This document shows, piece after piece, positions 48,308 through 54,703 of a stretch of DNA of 64,000 nucleotides (its first letter is position 1; every line of letters starts with the position of its first letter). The notes under the pieces were generated by a model that did no database searches, was not told the DNA's origin, and saw only the letters and a list, made by a program, of their open reading frames with translations. This stretch comes from Sphingomonas sp. HDW15A (GTDB taxonomy: Bacteria > Pseudomonadota > Alphaproteobacteria > Sphingomonadales > Sphingomonadaceae): positions 1,860,001 through 1,924,000 of the forward strand of contig NZ_CP049870.1 of the NCBI RefSeq assembly GCF_011301715.1, written 5' to 3'. The position numbers and the translations under genes were made by a program.

Positions 48308-49354
48308 TCAGGTTTTGTTGTCGGCCAAATCGTCGAGCTGCGCCCGAGTCGCAGCGTCATTCTTCGCCGGCCATTCCGGCTCGGGCTGTCCGCGCGTCTT
48401 CCATAGCGAGTAGCCGATTCCAGTGCCGATGAGTGCTGCGGTCACGCCCAGGCTGACTGCTGGCGGAAATTTGTCCCCGCCGAGCACGAAGTCGGCGACA
48501 AAGATCTTTGTGCCGATGAATACCAGCACCGCGGCAAGCGCATATTTGAGGTAGTGGAAGCGGTGAACCATCGCCGCCAGCGCAAAATAGAGCGCGCGCA
48601 AGCCGAGGATCGCCATGATGTTCGACGTGTAAACGATGAACGTATCGGTGGTGATGGCGAAGATCGCCGGCACGCTGTCCACCGCGAACACGAGGTCGGC
48701 AAGGTTTATGACCACAAGTGCCAGGAACAAGGGCGTTGCCGCAGTCACCAGCTTGCCCGTTTTCTCATCCGGTACCTTGACGAAGAAATGCTGGTTATGG
48801 AGTTCCTTGGTGACCCGCATGTGGGTCGATAACCAGCGCACGACCGGGTTCGAGGCGACGTCCATCGGTTTGTCGCCGGCGAAGAACATCTTGATCCCGG
48901 TCGCGATCAGGAAGGCCGCGAAGATATAGAGAACCCAATAGGCCTCGGCGACCAGCGCAGCGCCCCCTGCGATCATGATCCCGCGAAGGACGATCACGGC
49001 GATGATGCCCCACAGCAGCGCGCGATACTGATATTTCGCCGGGATCGCGAAAAAGCTGAAGATGAGGCTGATCACGAAGACATTGTCGATCGACAACGCC
49101 TTCTCGATGAAAAAGCCGGTGAAATATTGCATCCCGGGTTCCGCCCCGCGCTCGGACCAGATCCACGCGCCGAACGCCAGGGCCACAAGGATATAGAAGC
49201 CAGTTAGCTTGAAGCTTTCCGCGATTTCCATTTCCCGGTCTTCCTTGTGCAGGAAGCCCAGGTCGAACGCCGTAAGCGCAGCAACTAGGCCAAGGAACGA
49301 GAGCCAGAACCAGGCAGGCGTGCCAAGCCAGTCGGCAGCGAGAAATTCCATCAT
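48308..49354 (-). CDS. TerC family integral membrane protein
   Basis: About 348 residues with eight or so membrane segments. The conserved acidic motifs of TerC are visible: FFIEKALSIDNVFVISLIF and LVVINLADLVFAVDSVPAIF. Members such as Alx export manganese or support metallation of secreted enzymes; others are linked to tellurite resistance. No tellurite genes are here, and the coupling to an exported zinc carbonic anhydrase favours a metal role, which is inference. The ATG at 49354 is used in preference to a TTG two codons upstream. Confidence 0.88.
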   Translation of the reverse strand: MMEFLAADWLGTPAWFWLSFLGLVAALTAFDLGFLHKEDREMEIAESFKLTGFYILVALAFGAWIWSERGAEPGMQYFTGFFIEKALSIDNVFVISLIFSFFAIPAKYQYRALLWGIIAVIVLRGIMIAGGAALVAEAYWVLYIFAAFLIATGIKMFFAGDKPMDVASNPVVRWLSTHMRVTKELHNQHFFVKVPDEKTGKLVTAATPLFLALVVINLADLVFAVDSVPAIFAITTDTFIVYTSNIMAILGLRALYFALAAMVHRFHYLKYALAAVLVFIGTKIFVADFVLGGDKFPPAVSLGVTAALIGTGIGYSLWKTRGQPEPEWPAKNDAATRAQLDDLADNKT

Positions 49355-49383
49355 CTTCAATACCCCTGTTTGGGAAAACGCAC

Positions 49384-49418: not shown

Positions 49419-49595
49419 TCAGCCAGCTCGGCTCGGTTTCGTGACCATCCGGCGCAGCATGTCCTTGGCTTTAAGCTTGAGCTTCTTCAGGCGCATCAGC
49501 TTGAACACATCTGGAGCGCGGTGTCGCTGCTCACGACGGATCAGTTCGTCGATCCGCTGGTGGCGAAGCATGATTCGAAACATTCGGCGTGACAT
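49419..49595 (-). CDS. DUF465 (YdcH-like) small protein
   Basis: A 58-residue, very basic helical protein: MSRRMFRIMLRHQRIDELI, REQRHRAPDVFKLMRLKKLK and a basic tail MLRRMVTKPSRAG. The RxxRAPDxFKLMRLKKLKL pattern is that of DUF465/YdcH, whose function is unknown. The ATG at 49595 has AGAGGAG seven bases ahead; the open frame upstream has no family sequence. Confidence 0.82.
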   Translation of the reverse strand: MSRRMFRIMLRHQRIDELIRREQRHRAPDVFKLMRLKKLKLKAKDMLRRMVTKPSRAG

Positions 49596-49890
49596 TGTCG
49601 TCTCCTCTTCAAAAGCCGTTGCTTTCGATCGGAGATCCGGTGGCCCGAGGGGGTGGGAGGGCATCGAAGCGCACCGGATTATCCGATGCGGTCCGACATC
49701 ACGCCAGTTACGACTGGCGCCAGAGGGGCCCGGTCCGCGCTGACTAAATGAACGCAGAGAGGATCATTTTCAAGTGGTCCTTGAAAACCCATCTCCCGCG
49801 ATGCGTGTCCCCATCGCCACAGCCCCCTCTACGCGCCCGATTTTTTTCACCGCCGGTTAATTTTTCGCTTGTGCCCGGACTCGGTTTTAA

Positions 49891-49906
49891 ACACTATATG
49901 TAGCGT
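49891..49906 (+). promoter_or_regulatory. NrdR box 1
   Basis: ACACTATATGTAGCGT matches the NrdR consensus acaCwAtATaTwGtgt at 14 of 16 positions. NrdR is the ATP/dATP-sensing repressor of ribonucleotide reductase genes. The box lies 212 bp before the nrdA start and probably overlaps the -10 region. Confidence 0.75.
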
Positions 49907-49921
49907 CTCAACGGGGGTTGC

Positions 49922-49937
49922 GCTCAATCTATTGTGA
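49922..49937 (+). promoter_or_regulatory. NrdR box 2
   Basis: GCTCAATCTATTGTGA fits the NrdR consensus at about 12 of 16 positions, with the TATTGTG half strong. It begins exactly 31 bp after box 1, which is the characteristic three-helical-turn spacing of paired NrdR sites. The spacing makes this weaker box believable. Confidence 0.65.
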
Positions 49938-49943
49938 TTGGGG

Positions 49944-49963
49944 CCGAAGATACCTATCTTCGG
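49944..49963 (+). repeat. Perfect stem-loop in the nrdA leader
   Basis: CCGAAGAT (49944-49951), loop ACCT, then ATCTTCGG (49956-49963): an eight-pair perfect hairpin six bases after NrdR box 2. No T run follows, so it is not a simple terminator. A second possible stem (GTCCC at 49979-49983 with GGGAC at 49995-49999) lies just downstream. Confidence 0.6.
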
Positions 49964-50117
49964 CAAGCGGCTTCGTGCGTCCCTGTGGATATCGGGGACA
50001 CGGGCCAGAAAGACCCCGCGGCGAGATGTTTTTAGGGTAGGTTCGCTGCTTCGGCGCCGAGTCGAACGTTTAGCGAACAAGTGGCCGCGAAGGCTGCGAC
50101 TGTGATGGGGTGAGGAC

Positions 50118-51994
50118 ATGGATTTTTCGACGGGCAATGACGTTCCGACCGGCGACGTGACGGCCACCCAGGCCAAGCGCACCAGTAAGACCGTCGACGC
50201 GCGCGCATTCGATGTCGTCACGGACGAATCGCGCGATTCGCTGCTGACCGAATTCGGCAAGGAGACGCTTAAGGACCGCTACCTGCTGCCGGGCGAGAAT
50301 TACCAGGACCTGTTCGCCCGGGTCGCCTCGGCCTATGCCGACGACGCTGACCACGCGCAGCGCATCTACGACTATATTTCGAAGCTATGGTTCATGCCGG
50401 CAACCCCCGTCCTTTCGAACGGCGGCACCGGCCGCGGCCTGCCGATCAGCTGCTATCTCAATAGCGTCGACGACAGCCTGGAAGGCATCGTCGGCACGTG
50501 GAACGAGAATGTCTGGCTCGCCTCGCGCGGCGGCGGCATCGGCACCTATTGGGGCGCGGTGCGTGGCATCGGCGAACCGGTCGGCCTCAACGGCAAGACC
50601 AGCGGCATCATCCCGTTCGTCCGCGTGATGGACAGCCTGACACTCGCTATTTCGCAAGGCTCGCTGCGCCGCGGCTCGGCCGCCTGCTACCTCGACATCA
50701 ACCACCCGGAGATCGAGGAATTCCTTGAGATCCGCAAACCTTCGGGTGACTTCAACCGCAAGGCGCTGAACCTCCACCACGGCGTGCTTATCACCGACGA
50801 ATTCATGGAAGCGGTCCGCGACGGCATCGATTTCACGCTTCGTAGCCCGCGCGACGGGTCCGAGCGCGGAAGCGTCAACGCCCGCGCCCTGTTCCAGAAG
50901 CTGGTCGAGACCCGGCTCGCTACTGGCGAGCCATACATCGTCTTCTCAGACACCGTGAACCGGAACATGCCCAAGCATCACCGCGACCTGGGCCTCAAGG
51001 TGTCGACCTCCAATCTCTGCTCGGAGATCACGCTTCCGACCGGCAAGGACCATCTCGGCGCCGATCGCACCGCCGTCTGCTGCCTCTCCTCTCTCAACCT
51101 CGAAACCTGGGACCAATGGAATGGCGACAGGATGTTCATCGAGGACGTCATGCGCTTCCTCGACAATGTCCTAAGCGACTATATCGCCCGCGCTCCGGAC
51201 GAGATGGCCCGCGCCAAGTACAGCGCCGAGCGCGAGCGTTCGGTCGGCCTTGGCGTGATGGGCTTCCACTCTTTCCTCCAGGCGCGCGGCCTGCCGTTCG
51301 AAGGCGCGATGGCCAAGTCGTGGAACCTCAAGATCTTCAAGCACATCCGCGCCCAGGTCGACGAGGCGTCGATGATGCTCGCGCAGGAACGCGGCCCCTG
51401 CCCAGACGCTGCCGACATGGGGGTGATGGAGCGGTTCAGCTGCAAGATGGCGATCGCTCCGACCGCGTCCATCTCGATCATCACCGGCGGTACCAGCGCC
51501 TGCATCGAACCGATCCCGGCCAATATCTACACACACAAGACGCTGTCGGGCAGCTTCTCGATCAAGAATCCCTATCTCGAGAAATTGCTGACCGAGAAGG
51601 CCAAGAACAGCGACGCGACGTGGAACTCGATCCTCGAGCGGGCGGCTCGGTCCAGCACCTCGACTTCCTCACGCCAGAGGAAAAGGACGTCTACAAGACC
51701 AGCTTCGAGATCGACCAGCGCTGGCTGATCGAGCTCGCCGCCGACCGCACGCCCTACATCGACCAGGCGACCTCGCTGAACCTGTTCATACCTGCCGACG
51801 TCGACAAGTGGGACTTGCTGATGCTTCACTTCCGCGCGTGGGAGCTTGGCATTAAGTCCCTCTATTATCTTCGTTCCAAGTCGGTCCAGCGCGCCGGATT
51901 CGCCGGCGGGGTCGAGGCGGACAACACGCCCGAGCTCAAGGAAATCCAGCTCGCCGCGACCACCGACTATGACGAGTGCCTCGCATGCCAATGA
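50118..51994 (+). CDS. nrdA: Ribonucleoside-diphosphate reductase alpha subunit, class I (frameshifted by one missing base)
   Basis: The catalytic subunit that makes deoxyribonucleotides, about 625 residues when repaired. The first frame has ISCYLNSVDDS, STSNLCSEITLP (thiyl-radical Cys), AVCCLSSLNL and IAPTASISIITGGTSACIEP. It then goes out of phase at GGG 51640-51642. The second frame resumes GGSVQHLDFLTPEEKDVYKT and contains the radical-transfer Tyr pair in SLYYLRSKS and the C-terminal redox pair in DECLACQ. One added G restores all of this in a single protein. The ATG at 50118 has GGTGAGG ahead of it. NrdR boxes lie upstream, and six small membrane ORFs separate it from nrdB. Confidence 0.95.
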
Positions 51995-52080
51995 CTTTGG
52001 CAGCCGCTCTCGTCGTCGCCCTGCTGGTGATCGTCATCGCGGGCGCCTCGCTCAAGCGCAAGCGTGGGCGGAAAGACTGA
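51985..52080 (+). CDS. nrd-operon mini-ORF 1: 31-aa single-span membrane peptide
   Basis: Starts inside the end of nrdA (ATG ten bases before the end of the nrdA stop). It consists of almost one hydrophobic helix (TLAAALVVALLVIVIAG) followed by a strongly basic tail ASLKRKRGRKD, so N-out or N-in with a cytoplasmic basic end. No family is recognised. It is followed one base later by the next mini-ORF. Expression is inferred from the tight packing. Confidence 0.6.
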   Translation: MPMTLAAALVVALLVIVIAGASLKRKRGRKD

Positions 52081-52081
52081 G

Positions 52082-52168
52082 ATGAGCACCATCATCGCCC
52101 TTATCGTGATCTCCGCCATCCTCGGCGCGGCTTTCCTTGCGCCGGGCGGACGCGGCTCGGAACATTAG
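52082..52168 (+). CDS. nrd-operon mini-ORF 2: 28-aa single-span membrane peptide
   Basis: The ATG follows the previous TGA after one base. The peptide is a single hydrophobic helix (STIIALIVISAILGAAFLAP) with the polar end GGRGSEH. Four bases separate it from mini-ORF 3. The small size makes chance possible, but the start fits the coupled series. Confidence 0.5.
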   Translation: MSTIIALIVISAILGAAFLAPGGRGSEH

Positions 52169-52172
52169 GGCA

Positions 52173-52361
52173 ATGACCTACGCCAACCTCATCATGCTCG
52201 GCCTCGGCCTGGTCGCCTTCGCGATCGGCGTGACATTGCTCGTCCGCCCCGCCGCGACCCCGCAGGGCGCCTATGTCCGGCGGATTTCGGGCGCAATGAT
52301 CCTTGCGCTCGGCATCGCCCTGTCGATCTTTGCGTTCGGGCTGAAAGGCGTCGGCCGATGA
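52173..52361 (+). CDS. nrd-operon mini-ORF 3: 62-aa two-span membrane protein
   Basis: Two hydrophobic helices (ANLIMLGLGLVAFAIGVTLL and GAMILALGIALSIFAFGL) joined by a short polar loop RPAATPQGAYVRRIS. The ATG at 52173 is preferred over the open extension to 52137, which overlaps mini-ORF 2. Its stop overlaps the next start (ATGA). No named family is recognised. Confidence 0.65.
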   Translation: MTYANLIMLGLGLVAFAIGVTLLVRPAATPQGAYVRRISGAMILALGIALSIFAFGLKGVGR

Positions 52362-52570
52362 CCGTCAACGAGAGCCTGGCGCTGGCCATTGGCCTCGGTG
52401 CGATTGCCGCCGGGGGAATGCTGATCTTCCGCCGCCGCCGCGAGGGCAATTCGCGCGGCAGCCAGGGCGGGGTCATCCTGCTGCTGATCGGCGCGATGGC
52501 GGTGGTCTATGGCCTCGGCCTCACCAAATACCGCCCCTCCCCGTCGGAGCTGGAGGCGATGCACCGATGA
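52358..52570 (+). CDS. nrd-operon mini-ORF 4: 70-aa two-span membrane protein
   Basis: Two hydrophobic helices (LALAIGLGAIAAGGMLIF and GGVILLLIGAMAVVYGLGL) flank a basic cytoplasmic loop RRRREGNSRGSQ, with the tail KYRPSPSELEAMHR. It resembles mini-ORF 3 in size and two-helix plan, perhaps an old duplication. The ATG overlaps the previous stop and the TGA overlaps the next start (ATGA at both ends). Confidence 0.65.
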   Translation: MTVNESLALAIGLGAIAAGGMLIFRRRREGNSRGSQGGVILLLIGAMAVVYGLGLTKYRPSPSELEAMHR

Positions 52571-52887
52571 GCCGCCGCGCCCTCACCCTCCTTCCGCTGC
52601 TCCTTCTCGCCGCCTGCTCGGCGCAGCAGCAGGCGGACGCGGTCGCGCCTTCCGCGCCAGGCTTCCTGCTCGGCCTGTGGCACGGCTTCATCTTCCCGGT
52701 CGCCTGGGTCGTCTCGCTCTTCGTGGACAAGGTCGCCGTCTACGCTGTCCCCAACAACGGCGGTTGGTATGATTTCGGCTATTTCCTCGGGATTGTCGTG
52801 TTCGGGGTCGGCGCCCGCAAGACGCATGTCGTCTACAAGGACCGGGTCATCGATGTCCGCGCCAAGCGGGTGGAGGATATAGGCTGA
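52567..52887 (+). CDS. nrd-operon mini-ORF 5: 106-aa small lipoprotein with GLWHG/NNGGWYDFG motifs
   Basis: A lipoprotein signal with Cys at residue 18 (ALTLLPLLLLAACSAQ) is followed by GFLLGLWHGFIFPVAWVVSL and NNGGWYDFGYFLGIVVFG, then a charged tail. The GLWHG and NxGGWYDFGxxLG blocks recur in a widespread family of small, unnamed lipoproteins, so this one is the best-supported gene of the six. Its TGA overlaps the start of mini-ORF 6 (TGATG). Confidence 0.75.
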   Translation: MSRRALTLLPLLLLAACSAQQQADAVAPSAPGFLLGLWHGFIFPVAWVVSLFVDKVAVYAVPNNGGWYDFGYFLGIVVFGVGARKTHVVYKDRVIDVRAKRVEDIG

Positions 52888-53018
52888 TGACCACGACGCA
52901 GATCGTCCTCGTCGTCGCGCTTGTCGCGGTGCTCGCCATCCTCCTCATTGCTCGCGGCTCCGGCCCAAGCGTCACCCATATCGAAACCCGCAAAGACCAA
53001 GATTCAGGAGACCGTTAA
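52887..53018 (+). CDS. nrd-operon mini-ORF 6: 43-aa single-span membrane peptide
   Basis: One hydrophobic helix (QIVLVVALVAVLAILLIA) and a polar tail RGSGPSVTHIETRKDQDSGD. The TAA is directly followed by the nrdB ATG with no gap. The tail also contains the probable nrdB ribosome-binding site (CAGGAG), so translation of this ORF and nrdB should be linked. Confidence 0.6.
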   Translation: MTTTQIVLVVALVAVLAILLIARGSGPSVTHIETRKDQDSGDR

Positions 53019-54083
53019 ATGCCCCTCCTTCAAGCGTCCCGTCAGTACAAGCCGTTCGAATACCCGTGGGCGTTCGAATATTGGAAGCGCCAGCAGCAGA
53101 TCCACTGGATGCCAGAGGAAGTGCCGCTCGGCGAGGATTGTCGCGACTGGGCGCAGAAGCTGACCGATCACGAGCGCAACCTGCTCACCCAGATCTTCCG
53201 CTTCTTCACACAGGCCGACGTCGAGGTGCAGGATTGCTACCACGACAAGTATGGCCGCGTGTTCAAGCCGACCGAGGTGAAGATGATGCTCACCGCCTTC
53301 TCCAACATGGAGACGGTGCACATTGCCGCCTACAGCCACCTGCTCGACACCATCGGCATGCCCGAAAGCGAGTATAGCGCCTTCCTCCAGTACAAGGAGA
53401 TGAAGGACAAGCACGACTATCTCTCCACCTTCGGCGTCGACACCGACGAGGATATCGCCAAGACGCTCGCCATGTTCGGCGGCTTCACCGAGGGGCTGCA
53501 GCTGTTCGCCAGCTTCGCGATGCTGATGAACTTCCCGCGCTTCAACAAGATGAAGGGCATGGGCCAGATCGTCAGCTGGTCGGTGCGCGACGAGAGCCTC
53601 CACTGCGAGGGCATCATCAAGCTGTTCCACGCCTTCGTGAAGGAGCGCGACTGCCTCACCAAGCAGGTCAAGGACGAGATCATCGACACCTGCCAGAAGA
53701 CGGTGCGGCTGGAAGACGCCTTCATCGACCTGGCGTTCGAGATGGGCCCGGTCGAGGGCATGACCCCCAAGGCGATCAAGAAGTATATCCGCTACATCGC
53801 CGACTGGCGCCTGGGCCAGCTAGGCTTCCAGCCGATCTACATGGTCGACGAGCACCCGCTGCCGTGGCTTGCGCCGATGCTCAACGGGGTTGAGCACGCC
53901 AACTTCTTCGAGACCCGCGCGACCGAATATTCCAAGGCCGCGACCAAGGGCAATTGGAATGAGGTGTGGGACAATTTCGACCGCCGCCAGAAGGCCAAAG
54001 CCGCGAATGATGCGCCTGCTGAGGAGGAAGCGTTGGGCGAGGTGGATATGTTCGGGCAGACAAGCGGAGTCGCGGCGGAGTAA
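53019..54083 (+). CDS. nrdB: Ribonucleoside-diphosphate reductase beta subunit, class I
   Basis: The di-iron subunit, 354 residues. The metal ligands and radical site are visible in NMETVHIAAYSHLLD: Glu 98, His 101 and Tyr 105, with the E-x2-H-x3-Y spacing of E. coli NrdB (115/118/122), so a tyrosyl radical is expected. A second set is in the FGGFTEGLQLFASFAM and WSVRDESLHCEGI region. It starts immediately after mini-ORF 6. The C-terminus ends with an acidic tail EEEALGEVDMFGQ typical of the alpha-binding end. Confidence 0.96.
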   Translation: MPLLQASRQYKPFEYPWAFEYWKRQQQIHWMPEEVPLGEDCRDWAQKLTDHERNLLTQIFRFFTQADVEVQDCYHDKYGRVFKPTEVKMMLTAFSNMETVHIAAYSHLLDTIGMPESEYSAFLQYKEMKDKHDYLSTFGVDTDEDIAKTLAMFGGFTEGLQLFASFAMLMNFPRFNKMKGMGQIVSWSVRDESLHCEGIIKLFHAFVKERDCLTKQVKDEIIDTCQKTVRLEDAFIDLAFEMGPVEGMTPKAIKKYIRYIADWRLGQLGFQPIYMVDEHPLPWLAPMLNGVEHANFFETRATEYSKAATKGNWNEVWDNFDRRQKAKAANDAPAEEEALGEVDMFGQTSGVAAE

Positions 54084-54115
54084 GAGCGCGATGAAATCGC
54101 CATGATTTCCAGGCG

Positions 54116-54703
54116 CTAATGCGTCCAATCTAGCTTTAGAGTTTCGAAGTGCCAGTGGAGTTGCTCCGGGGTAGCGCCGGGCACGTCGTTGACCCGCCGC
54201 AGCATAGCCTCCCCTTCGATCCGGACCGGTCGCCCGTCCATGTCGTTCGCGGTGATGATGATCGGCGCGCTGTAGTAGGTCGATCCCGCCGCACCCTCCA
54301 TCGTTCCGGCCGGCACCGCGACGCTGATCTTGCCGAGGTCCGCGAATATCTTCGCGAACACGACCTGGCTCCATCTCGCCTTGTCGGCCGGGCTCAACAG
54401 CGCCCACGCCTGATTGAATTCCTTCAGCTCTATCGCCCGCGCGAAGGACAGCAGCACGTTGCGCGCGCTTTTCTCCCCGCGCTCCGCTTCTGGGGTCAGA
54501 TTGGGCGGCGCCAAGTCCGGTCCCGCGGTATCGGCGGGCTCGGCAGTCGGCGAAGCGGGCACGGCGCTCCGGTTGAGATCAACATGCGCTTCCGCCGTTG
54601 GCTCCGAGCTCGAAAGGTTGCGGTTGGTGGCGGGCTGCTCGGGCTCGCATGCGCACAGCAACGGGATCGGGATCAGGGCGGCGCAGAATATTGGTCGAGG
54701 CAT
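54116..54703 (-). CDS. Hypothetical lipoprotein
   Basis: A 195-residue predicted lipoprotein (AALIPIPLLCACEPEQ). A Ser/Pro/Ala-rich low-complexity region covers about residues 25-80, then a compact domain with LLSFARAIELKEFNQAWALL and a beta-rich end TYYSAPIIITANDMDG. The domain has some look of an NTF2-like or DUF4440 fold, but I do not recognise a family. It converges with nrdB. Confidence 0.65.
   Translation of the reverse strand: MPRPIFCAALIPIPLLCACEPEQPATNRNLSSSEPTAEAHVDLNRSAVPASPTAEPADTAGPDLAPPNLTPEAERGEKSARNVLLSFARAIELKEFNQAWALLSPADKARWSQVVFAKIFADLGKISVAVPAGTMEGAAGSTYYSAPIIITANDMDGRPVRIEGEAMLRRVNDVPGATPEQLHWHFETLKLDWTH

Follow-up and report, generated by a model that had tools for sequence, protein, structure and literature searches.

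The nrdA–nrdB interval of Sphingomonadaceae, a probable cargo site for small membrane-protein genes within a ribonucleotide reductase operon

YfaE is a small accessory gene of ribonucleotide reductase (RNR) operons. The accessory genes NrdH and NrdI are also small and co-located with RNR genes (retrieved part of PMC3019208), and the RNR regions of phages contain introns, inteins and homing endonucleases (retrieved part of PMC3653736). Co-directional overlapping gene pairs were reported to be close to 15% in most groups, and overlapping ATGA and TGATG pairs can couple translation through termination–reinitiation (Huber et al., 2019, PMC6728339, retrieved part). The retrieved part of an E. coli tiling-array paper (PMC3009722) reports no peptide between nrdA and nrdB. 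Here, the interval between nrdA and nrdB, which encode the two subunits of the class I reductase, was analyzed in a 64,000-nucleotide (nt) stretch of Sphingomonas sp. HDW15A (contig NZ_CP049870.1, positions 1,860,001 to 1,924,000; hereafter the window) and in its relatives. The window genome (G000) is a single contig of 2.34 Mb. The interval 51985–53018 on the plus strand, with nrdA on one side and nrdB on the other, is filled by six small open reading frames (ORFs), as follows.

50118–51994, plus strand: nrdA, class I reductase large subunit, frameshifted near 51638–51648 in the assembly
51985–52080, plus strand: ORF1, 31 residues, one hydrophobic segment and a basic C-terminus; 10-nt overlap with nrdA
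52082–52168, plus strand: ORF2, 28 residues, one hydrophobic segment; 1-nt gap after ORF1
52173–52361, plus strand: ORF3, 62 residues, family F3, two-segment membrane protein; 4-nt gap after ORF2
52358–52570, plus strand: ORF4, 70 residues, family F4, two-segment hairpin; ATGA junction
52567–52887, plus strand: ORF5, 106 residues, family F5, predicted lipoprotein (LAAC, Cys17); ATGA junction
52887–53018, plus strand: ORF6, 43 residues, family F6, one segment and a GPxVTxIExR-type tail; TGATG junction
53019–54083, plus strand: nrdB, class I reductase small subunit, 354 residues

The six ORFs were all read in the sequence with the sizes and junctions listed in an earlier note on this DNA, to which an alternative start of ORF1 is added: if it began at the internal ATG at 51991, it would have 29 residues and share the 4 nt ATGA with the end of nrdA (TGA). 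The TAA of ORF6 abuts the nrdB ATG at 53019 without a gap. The same note described all six as hydrophobic or lipidated, and a hydrophobicity scan indeed located a hydrophobic segment in each (6/6; the control was 12 hand-chosen long window proteins, skewed towards soluble ones). The signal segment of ORF5 ends in LLLLAAC, and its Cys17, the predicted lipidation site, is invariant across 43 aligned sequences. In detail, ORF4 carries RRRR...GSQG in its loop and YRPSPSE as its tail, and the core of ORF5 and its family reads WHGFIFPVAW...VYAVPNNGGWYDFGYFLG; an AlphaFold2 model of F5 reached a mean predicted local distance difference test (pLDDT) of 60 and a predicted template modelling score (pTM) of 0.28. 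In scans of several of the interval's families against Pfam, F3, F4, F5, F6, F8 and F10 received no convincing assignment. Two database candidates were rejected: ORF4 as an LPXTG sortase anchor, which scored above the cut-offs (21.4 vs. 20 and 21.8 vs. 15.9 bits; Pfam/NCBIfam) but has two hydrophobic segments and no LPXTG motif, and ORF2 as FixS/CcoS, which stayed below the curated cut-offs (12.4 vs. 23.1 and 10.7 vs. 28.35 bits).

The junctions are of the same types as the overlapping pairs of Huber et al. (PMC6728339, retrieved part); unlike there, 64 of 78 family-to-family junctions overlap here (57 by 4 nt and 7 by 1 nt), and the chain lies between two subunits of one enzyme. Phage RNR regions likewise receive inserted genes, whereas the guests here are small membrane proteins on bacterial chromosomes, and ORF1–6 gave no match to endonuclease, intron or intein domains, nor to the NrdH, NrdI and YfaE families, in Pfam and NCBIfam. 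An operon whose flanking genes form one enzyme would normally be expected to be compact, while this bacterial family tolerates, and seems to maintain, changing uncharacterised membrane-protein genes between the enzyme subunits. We consider it probable that the nrdA–nrdB interval of Sphingomonadaceae is a site that takes up gene cargo within an operon that NrdR probably controls, and that inserts persist there if ribosomes reach nrdB. The data point to an unrecognised gene-collecting spot within a vital operon; in the open-access literature, as judged from titles and the starts of abstracts, no description of this interval in sphingomonads was found.

The length of the interval was compared over 48 of 61 genomes of the genus; the other 13 were dropped because nrdA or nrdB was absent or too far away, and G053b, a second nrd copy, does not enter the counts. 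The nrdA–nrdB gap ranged from 48 to 3860 nt and exceeded 500 nt in 40 of the 48 loci, while it was just 51 and 48 nt in two genomes (G002 and G059), so the cargo is dispensable. Across the family, one genome was taken from each of 60 of the 89 genera, those most like the window with listed nrdB coordinates; in the 56 with both genes on the same strand and in reach, the gap was 60–5608 nt with a median of 889, and at least 500 nt in 39. Outside the family but within the order, the gap could be read at 31 loci and was at most 104 nt at 21 of them. As a control, the distance from secD to a fixed point in secF varied from −6 to +94 nt over 58 genus genomes, 57 of which lay within −6 to +15. Thus, the interval varies far more than the single control pair secD–secF.

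Other species carry homologues of ORF3, ORF4, ORF5 and ORF6 between their nrdA and nrdB. With seeded hidden Markov models and iterated profiles over the 48 genus intervals, F3 was assigned in 33, F4 in 24 (three of them, in G011, G015 and G054, doubtful because weak or resembling another family), F5 in 17 and F6 in 5, and further families were the PepSY-like F7 (16), F8 (12) and F10 (11). ORF4 relatives of exactly 70 residues are 84–93% identical, the top row, without source, possibly being the window's own protein. Whole-genome searches in the genus, counted as hits in genomes with a located nrdB and with the window's own included, placed F5 in 20/20, F3 in 35/35 and F4 in 24/24 cases within 4.5 kb upstream of nrdB on the same strand (the F4 count drops to 23 without G013, where the search weakly cross-matched the F3 gene), and no copy of these three families was placed away from nrdB in those genomes. 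F6 occurred near nrdB in five genus genomes, including the window's. F8 was upstream of nrdB in 13 of 16 cases, with three elsewhere and one more unplaced, and all 18 strong F7 hits were upstream of nrdB; seven further F7 hits in the genus, all weak, lay elsewhere. In a further genome (G626), the hits to F3 and F4 fall inside the nrd interval.

Further, F5 was traced beyond the genus. It occurred in 66 of 249 genomes and 27 of 89 genera of the family, and in 42 of the 43 with a listed nrdB it lay 10–3834 nt upstream, the remaining one (G170) being on another contig. The best 80 of at least 242 F5 loci in named genomes, some of them also counted in the family-wide set, all had nrdA or nrdB no more than about 6 kb away (both genes visible in 66, nrdB alone in nine and nrdA alone in five), and F3 was also present in 48 of those 66. 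Some F5 protein records carry the label Sphingomicrobium, presumably the name of the genus in GTDB. Outside the family, F5 was found in one of 39 sampled genomes from other families of the order, and a phylum sample of 299 genomes gave nine hits, one of them outside the family. Distant relatives occurred in 13 plasmid records (11 from Vibrio) and eight phage records. Four were inspected: one Pseudoalteromonas and one Vibrio record have no nrd genes nearby, and one phage is unannotated. The absence of nearby nrd genes in the first two means that the F5–nrd link is not general; that is, F5 is nrd-linked in sphingomonads but not everywhere. In Cellulophaga phage phi17:2 (L310, 5827–6174), an F5-like protein is encoded about 3.3 kb downstream of the phage nrdB–nrdA pair.

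The ratio of non-synonymous to synonymous change (pN/pS) was then assayed in the annotated frame of disjoint close pairs, with shifted frames as controls. These pairs were used because the dN/dS values over all pairs, many of them distant, were high (medians of 0.43–0.76 for F3–F8 and F10, and up to 1.1 for F15 and F17), with dN below dS in 452 of 528 F3 pairs and 219 of 276 F4 pairs. The pN/pS values were 0.50 for F3 (12 pairs), 0.56 for F4 (5), 0.48 for F5 (8), 0.33 for F6 (one pair, G025–G042), 0.42 for F7 (7), 0.37 for F8 (one pair) and 0.58 for F10 (3), vs. 0.73–2.17 in the two shifted forward frames of the same seven families. In F13 and F14, with a single pair apiece, the annotated frame had a higher value than an antisense frame, so these short families are candidate genes at most. 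On these comparisons, ORF3–5 are judged to be under purifying selection, and ORF6 likewise in its one close pair. In contrast, ORF2 had no homologue in 53 other genus intervals (47 + 6; best non-self E value 0.11), and ORF1 no clear one in the same set, its weak matches being to the first half of an F4 protein (E 0.0006) and to a 27-residue peptide of G020 (E 0.006). The synonymous codon score placed the six ORFs moderately, at the 46th–99th percentile of true coding windows, and 6.7% and 2.4% of wrong-frame windows reached the scores of ORF1 and ORF2, respectively. The earlier note had argued for real translated genes and had made conservation in relatives and a substitution ratio below 1 its tests: for ORF3–6 the families are kept in the same interval, with pN/pS of 0.33–0.56 and an excess of stop–start overlaps, which favours the claim on sequence grounds, while it does not extend to ORF1 and ORF2, which may be young or non-functional.

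The gene set of the interval varies even between close species. The order is F4–F7–F11–F3–F8 in G049, F14–F3–F8–F7–F15 in G032 and F5–F3–DUF2171–F7–F8 in G021; the packed intervals of S. sediminicola and S. daechungensis hold F10–F4–F5–F3. On a tree of nrdA plus nrdB for 48 loci (built with a quick method, 22 of 45 inner branches starred), F3, F4, F5, F7 and F8 each required 8–10 changes. For F4, F5, F6, F7, F10 and DUF2171, the number of changes was lower than in each of 100 shuffles, which did not hold for F3, F8 and F17. Some other intervals contain DUF559, which also matches a restriction-endonuclease model, though less strongly.

Over all adjacent pairs, 75 of 136 had a −4 or −1 overlap vs. 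7.2 expected from sham stop positions, and coupled ORFs linked nrdA to nrdB in an unbroken chain in 22 of 41 genus intervals of 150–2500 nt vs. 1.6 expected from dinucleotide shuffles; kinship among the loci weakens these junction and chain statistics as well as those on DUF2171 below. On the reverse complement, full chains numbered 0 in the genus, 0 in the named, 3 in the representative and 0 in the order intervals. Upstream of nrdA, a pair of NrdR-box-like sequences was found.

49891–49937, plus strand: NrdR-box-like pair, boxes 49891–49906 and 49922–49937, 31 nt from start to start

This putative site, 227 nt upstream of the nrdA ATG, has 14/16 and 12/16 matches to a 16-letter consensus, a pair spacing of 31–32 nt being imposed as a search condition. 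At 43 genus loci, such pairs about 210–270 nt upstream of nrdA scored a mean of 23.7/32, vs. a mean of 17.0 and a maximum of 22 in mononucleotide shuffles, with 36 of the 43 loci above 22. Within the interval, NrdR-like pairs averaged 16.8, not above the shuffle level of 17.0. The NrdR operon layout has two 16-bp boxes 15–16 bp apart upstream (retrieved parts of PMC12176259 and PMC9110341), and the putative boxes follow it, which makes one NrdR-controlled unit led by nrdA plausible.

On the cargo-site reading, the interval would gain, reorder and lose small genes that run in the nrd direction, most of them encoding membrane proteins or, in the case of F5, a lipoprotein; such genes would be kept if the movement of ribosomes from nrdA to nrdB is maintained. 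A single NrdR-controlled transcript from the nrdA promoter would cover the unit, and avoidance of polarity may lie behind the coupling, as untranslated gaps would reduce nrdB expression; the stop–start overlaps would then arise because inserts persist when ribosomes keep moving from nrdA to nrdB. The products may act in the envelope, linked to growth.

Several observations weigh against this reading. The last junction, into nrdB, is a 1–15-nt gap in 19 of 32 cases. Together with the species-dependent gene set and the two members with 48- and 51-nt intervals, this lends no support to the earlier proposal that the peptides are made in a fixed ratio with the reductase. Full chains occurred in just 14 of 59 named intervals (0.7 expected) and 7 of 39 representative ones (1.2 expected), and the 3 order intervals had none, so strict continuity belongs chiefly to the window's genus. 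For the seven families assayed above, antisense frame 1 gave pN/pS of 0.58–0.77, which leaves a modest margin for selection. Many intervals hold a DUF2171 gene, always on the minus strand (70 hits in 202 intervals from overlapping sets, 68 distinct), so the interval does not consist of forward genes alone in every case. The gap was at least 522 nt in 10 of the 31 readable loci of other families of the order, so big inserts are not exclusive to this family. Two F4 hits, one in G012 and a weak one in G008, are on contigs that lack nrdB, and the variation control is one gene pair.

A wider reading, which we hold only tentatively, is that the operon serves as a nursery of small membrane-protein genes, where forced translation yields peptides, F3, F4 and F5 being lasting products and ORF1 and ORF2 young ones. 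DNA in the interval would be kept open, coupled and forward because translating ribosomes must reach nrdB; forward openness would be selected even across the opposite-strand DUF2171 gene, and the new peptides would be mostly membrane-soluble. The forward frame across DUF2171 has a −4 or −1 overlap with the start of the following family gene in 32 of 49 cases with a gene within 200 nt. It is open in 66 of 68, where codon usage predicts 56.4 (standard deviation 2.9), and in 45 of 68 there is an overlap with the start of an ORF downstream, vs. 10 and 25 of 68 for the other phases. As a protein gene this frame was ruled out, with pN/pS of 1.46 vs. 0.24 for DUF2171, which is itself under purifying selection, and the value of 0.38 for forward frame +1 is accounted for by codon geometry. 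The frame thus fits translation that may pass through the region without need of a product. The gene after the DUF2171 overlap is mostly F5, examples being the intervals of L156, L176, L187 and G021. Whether polarity forces new DNA inside operons into translation is a question that is made testable here.

It is unlikely that the families form a dedicated reductase-linked membrane module, in which F5, F3, F4 and partners occur at the nrd locus because they work together with the reductase, e.g., by supplying iron, electrons or a membrane site. The position of F3, F4 and F5 upstream of nrdB in genus genomes and the adjacency of F5 to nrd genes across many genera would agree with such a role, as would the PepSY_TM-like protein of some intervals: F7, a short two-segment protein of other genus intervals that was not found by a search of the window genome, matches PepSY_TM (PF03929) with 39.7 bits vs. 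the Pfam cut-off of 28.8, and this domain is known in redox membrane proteins. However, G002 and G059, 100% complete by estimate, gave no F3, F4, F5 or F8 hits, F7 was absent from the G002 search and had one weak hit elsewhere in G059, the gene set differs even among close species, and F5 relatives in the inspected Pseudoalteromonas and Vibrio records (2 of 13 plasmid records) are away from nrd genes. Whether small membrane proteins are tied to nucleotide reduction also becomes testable at this locus.

Similarly improbable is that the interval is a neutral, insertion-tolerant spacer, a site that merely tolerates DNA with neither a joint role nor selection for position. Frequent turnover and unrelated guests, such as the peptidase-like ORFs of about 750 residues, DUF559 and DUF2171, are what it would predict, but purifying selection, the excess overlaps and the finding that F3, F4 and F5 copies were placed nowhere else in genus genomes with a located nrdB already disfavour it. 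Chance ORFs in GC-rich DNA are a highly improbable source of the set, possibly applying to ORF1 and ORF2 with their missing clear homologues and modest codon scores, and ruled out for ORF3–6 by homologous families, selection and chain statistics.

The nrdA gene of the window, near 51638–51648, has one base fewer than its relatives, which the earlier note had missed, and is therefore split over two frames; the PRK09102 match stops at model position 490 in one frame and restarts at 490 in the other. This frameshift may be an assembly error or a real loss. A second reductase gene at G000:C1:785728–787128 was judged to be of class II type from its sequence features, so a real nrdA defect is conceivable.

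In the surroundings, a terC RNA motif (RF03067, 62.2 bits) at 49684–49741 on the minus strand was the sole Rfam match at gathering score in 49500–54500. It lies ahead of minus-strand ORFs leading to 48308–49360, a membrane protein that we take to be TerC-like. Consensus scans of 49700–54300, a weak method, gave 0 sigma-70-like promoters vs. 0.9 expected and 3 terminator-like sites vs. 3.0 expected.

Among other guests of the interval, an ORF of about 745–750 residues, presumably M28 peptidase-like, stands near the interval start in the nrdA direction in G005, G022, G034, G040 and L302 (G627). Repeat-like translations of short ORFs (e.g., PLAGEG, ETRRR) occur in the intervals of several relatives, which suggests that dispersed repeats may also land there. 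In other families of the order, nrd gaps of 2.8–4.2 kb were seen, for example at L062, L070, L103, L105, L106, L107 and L113.

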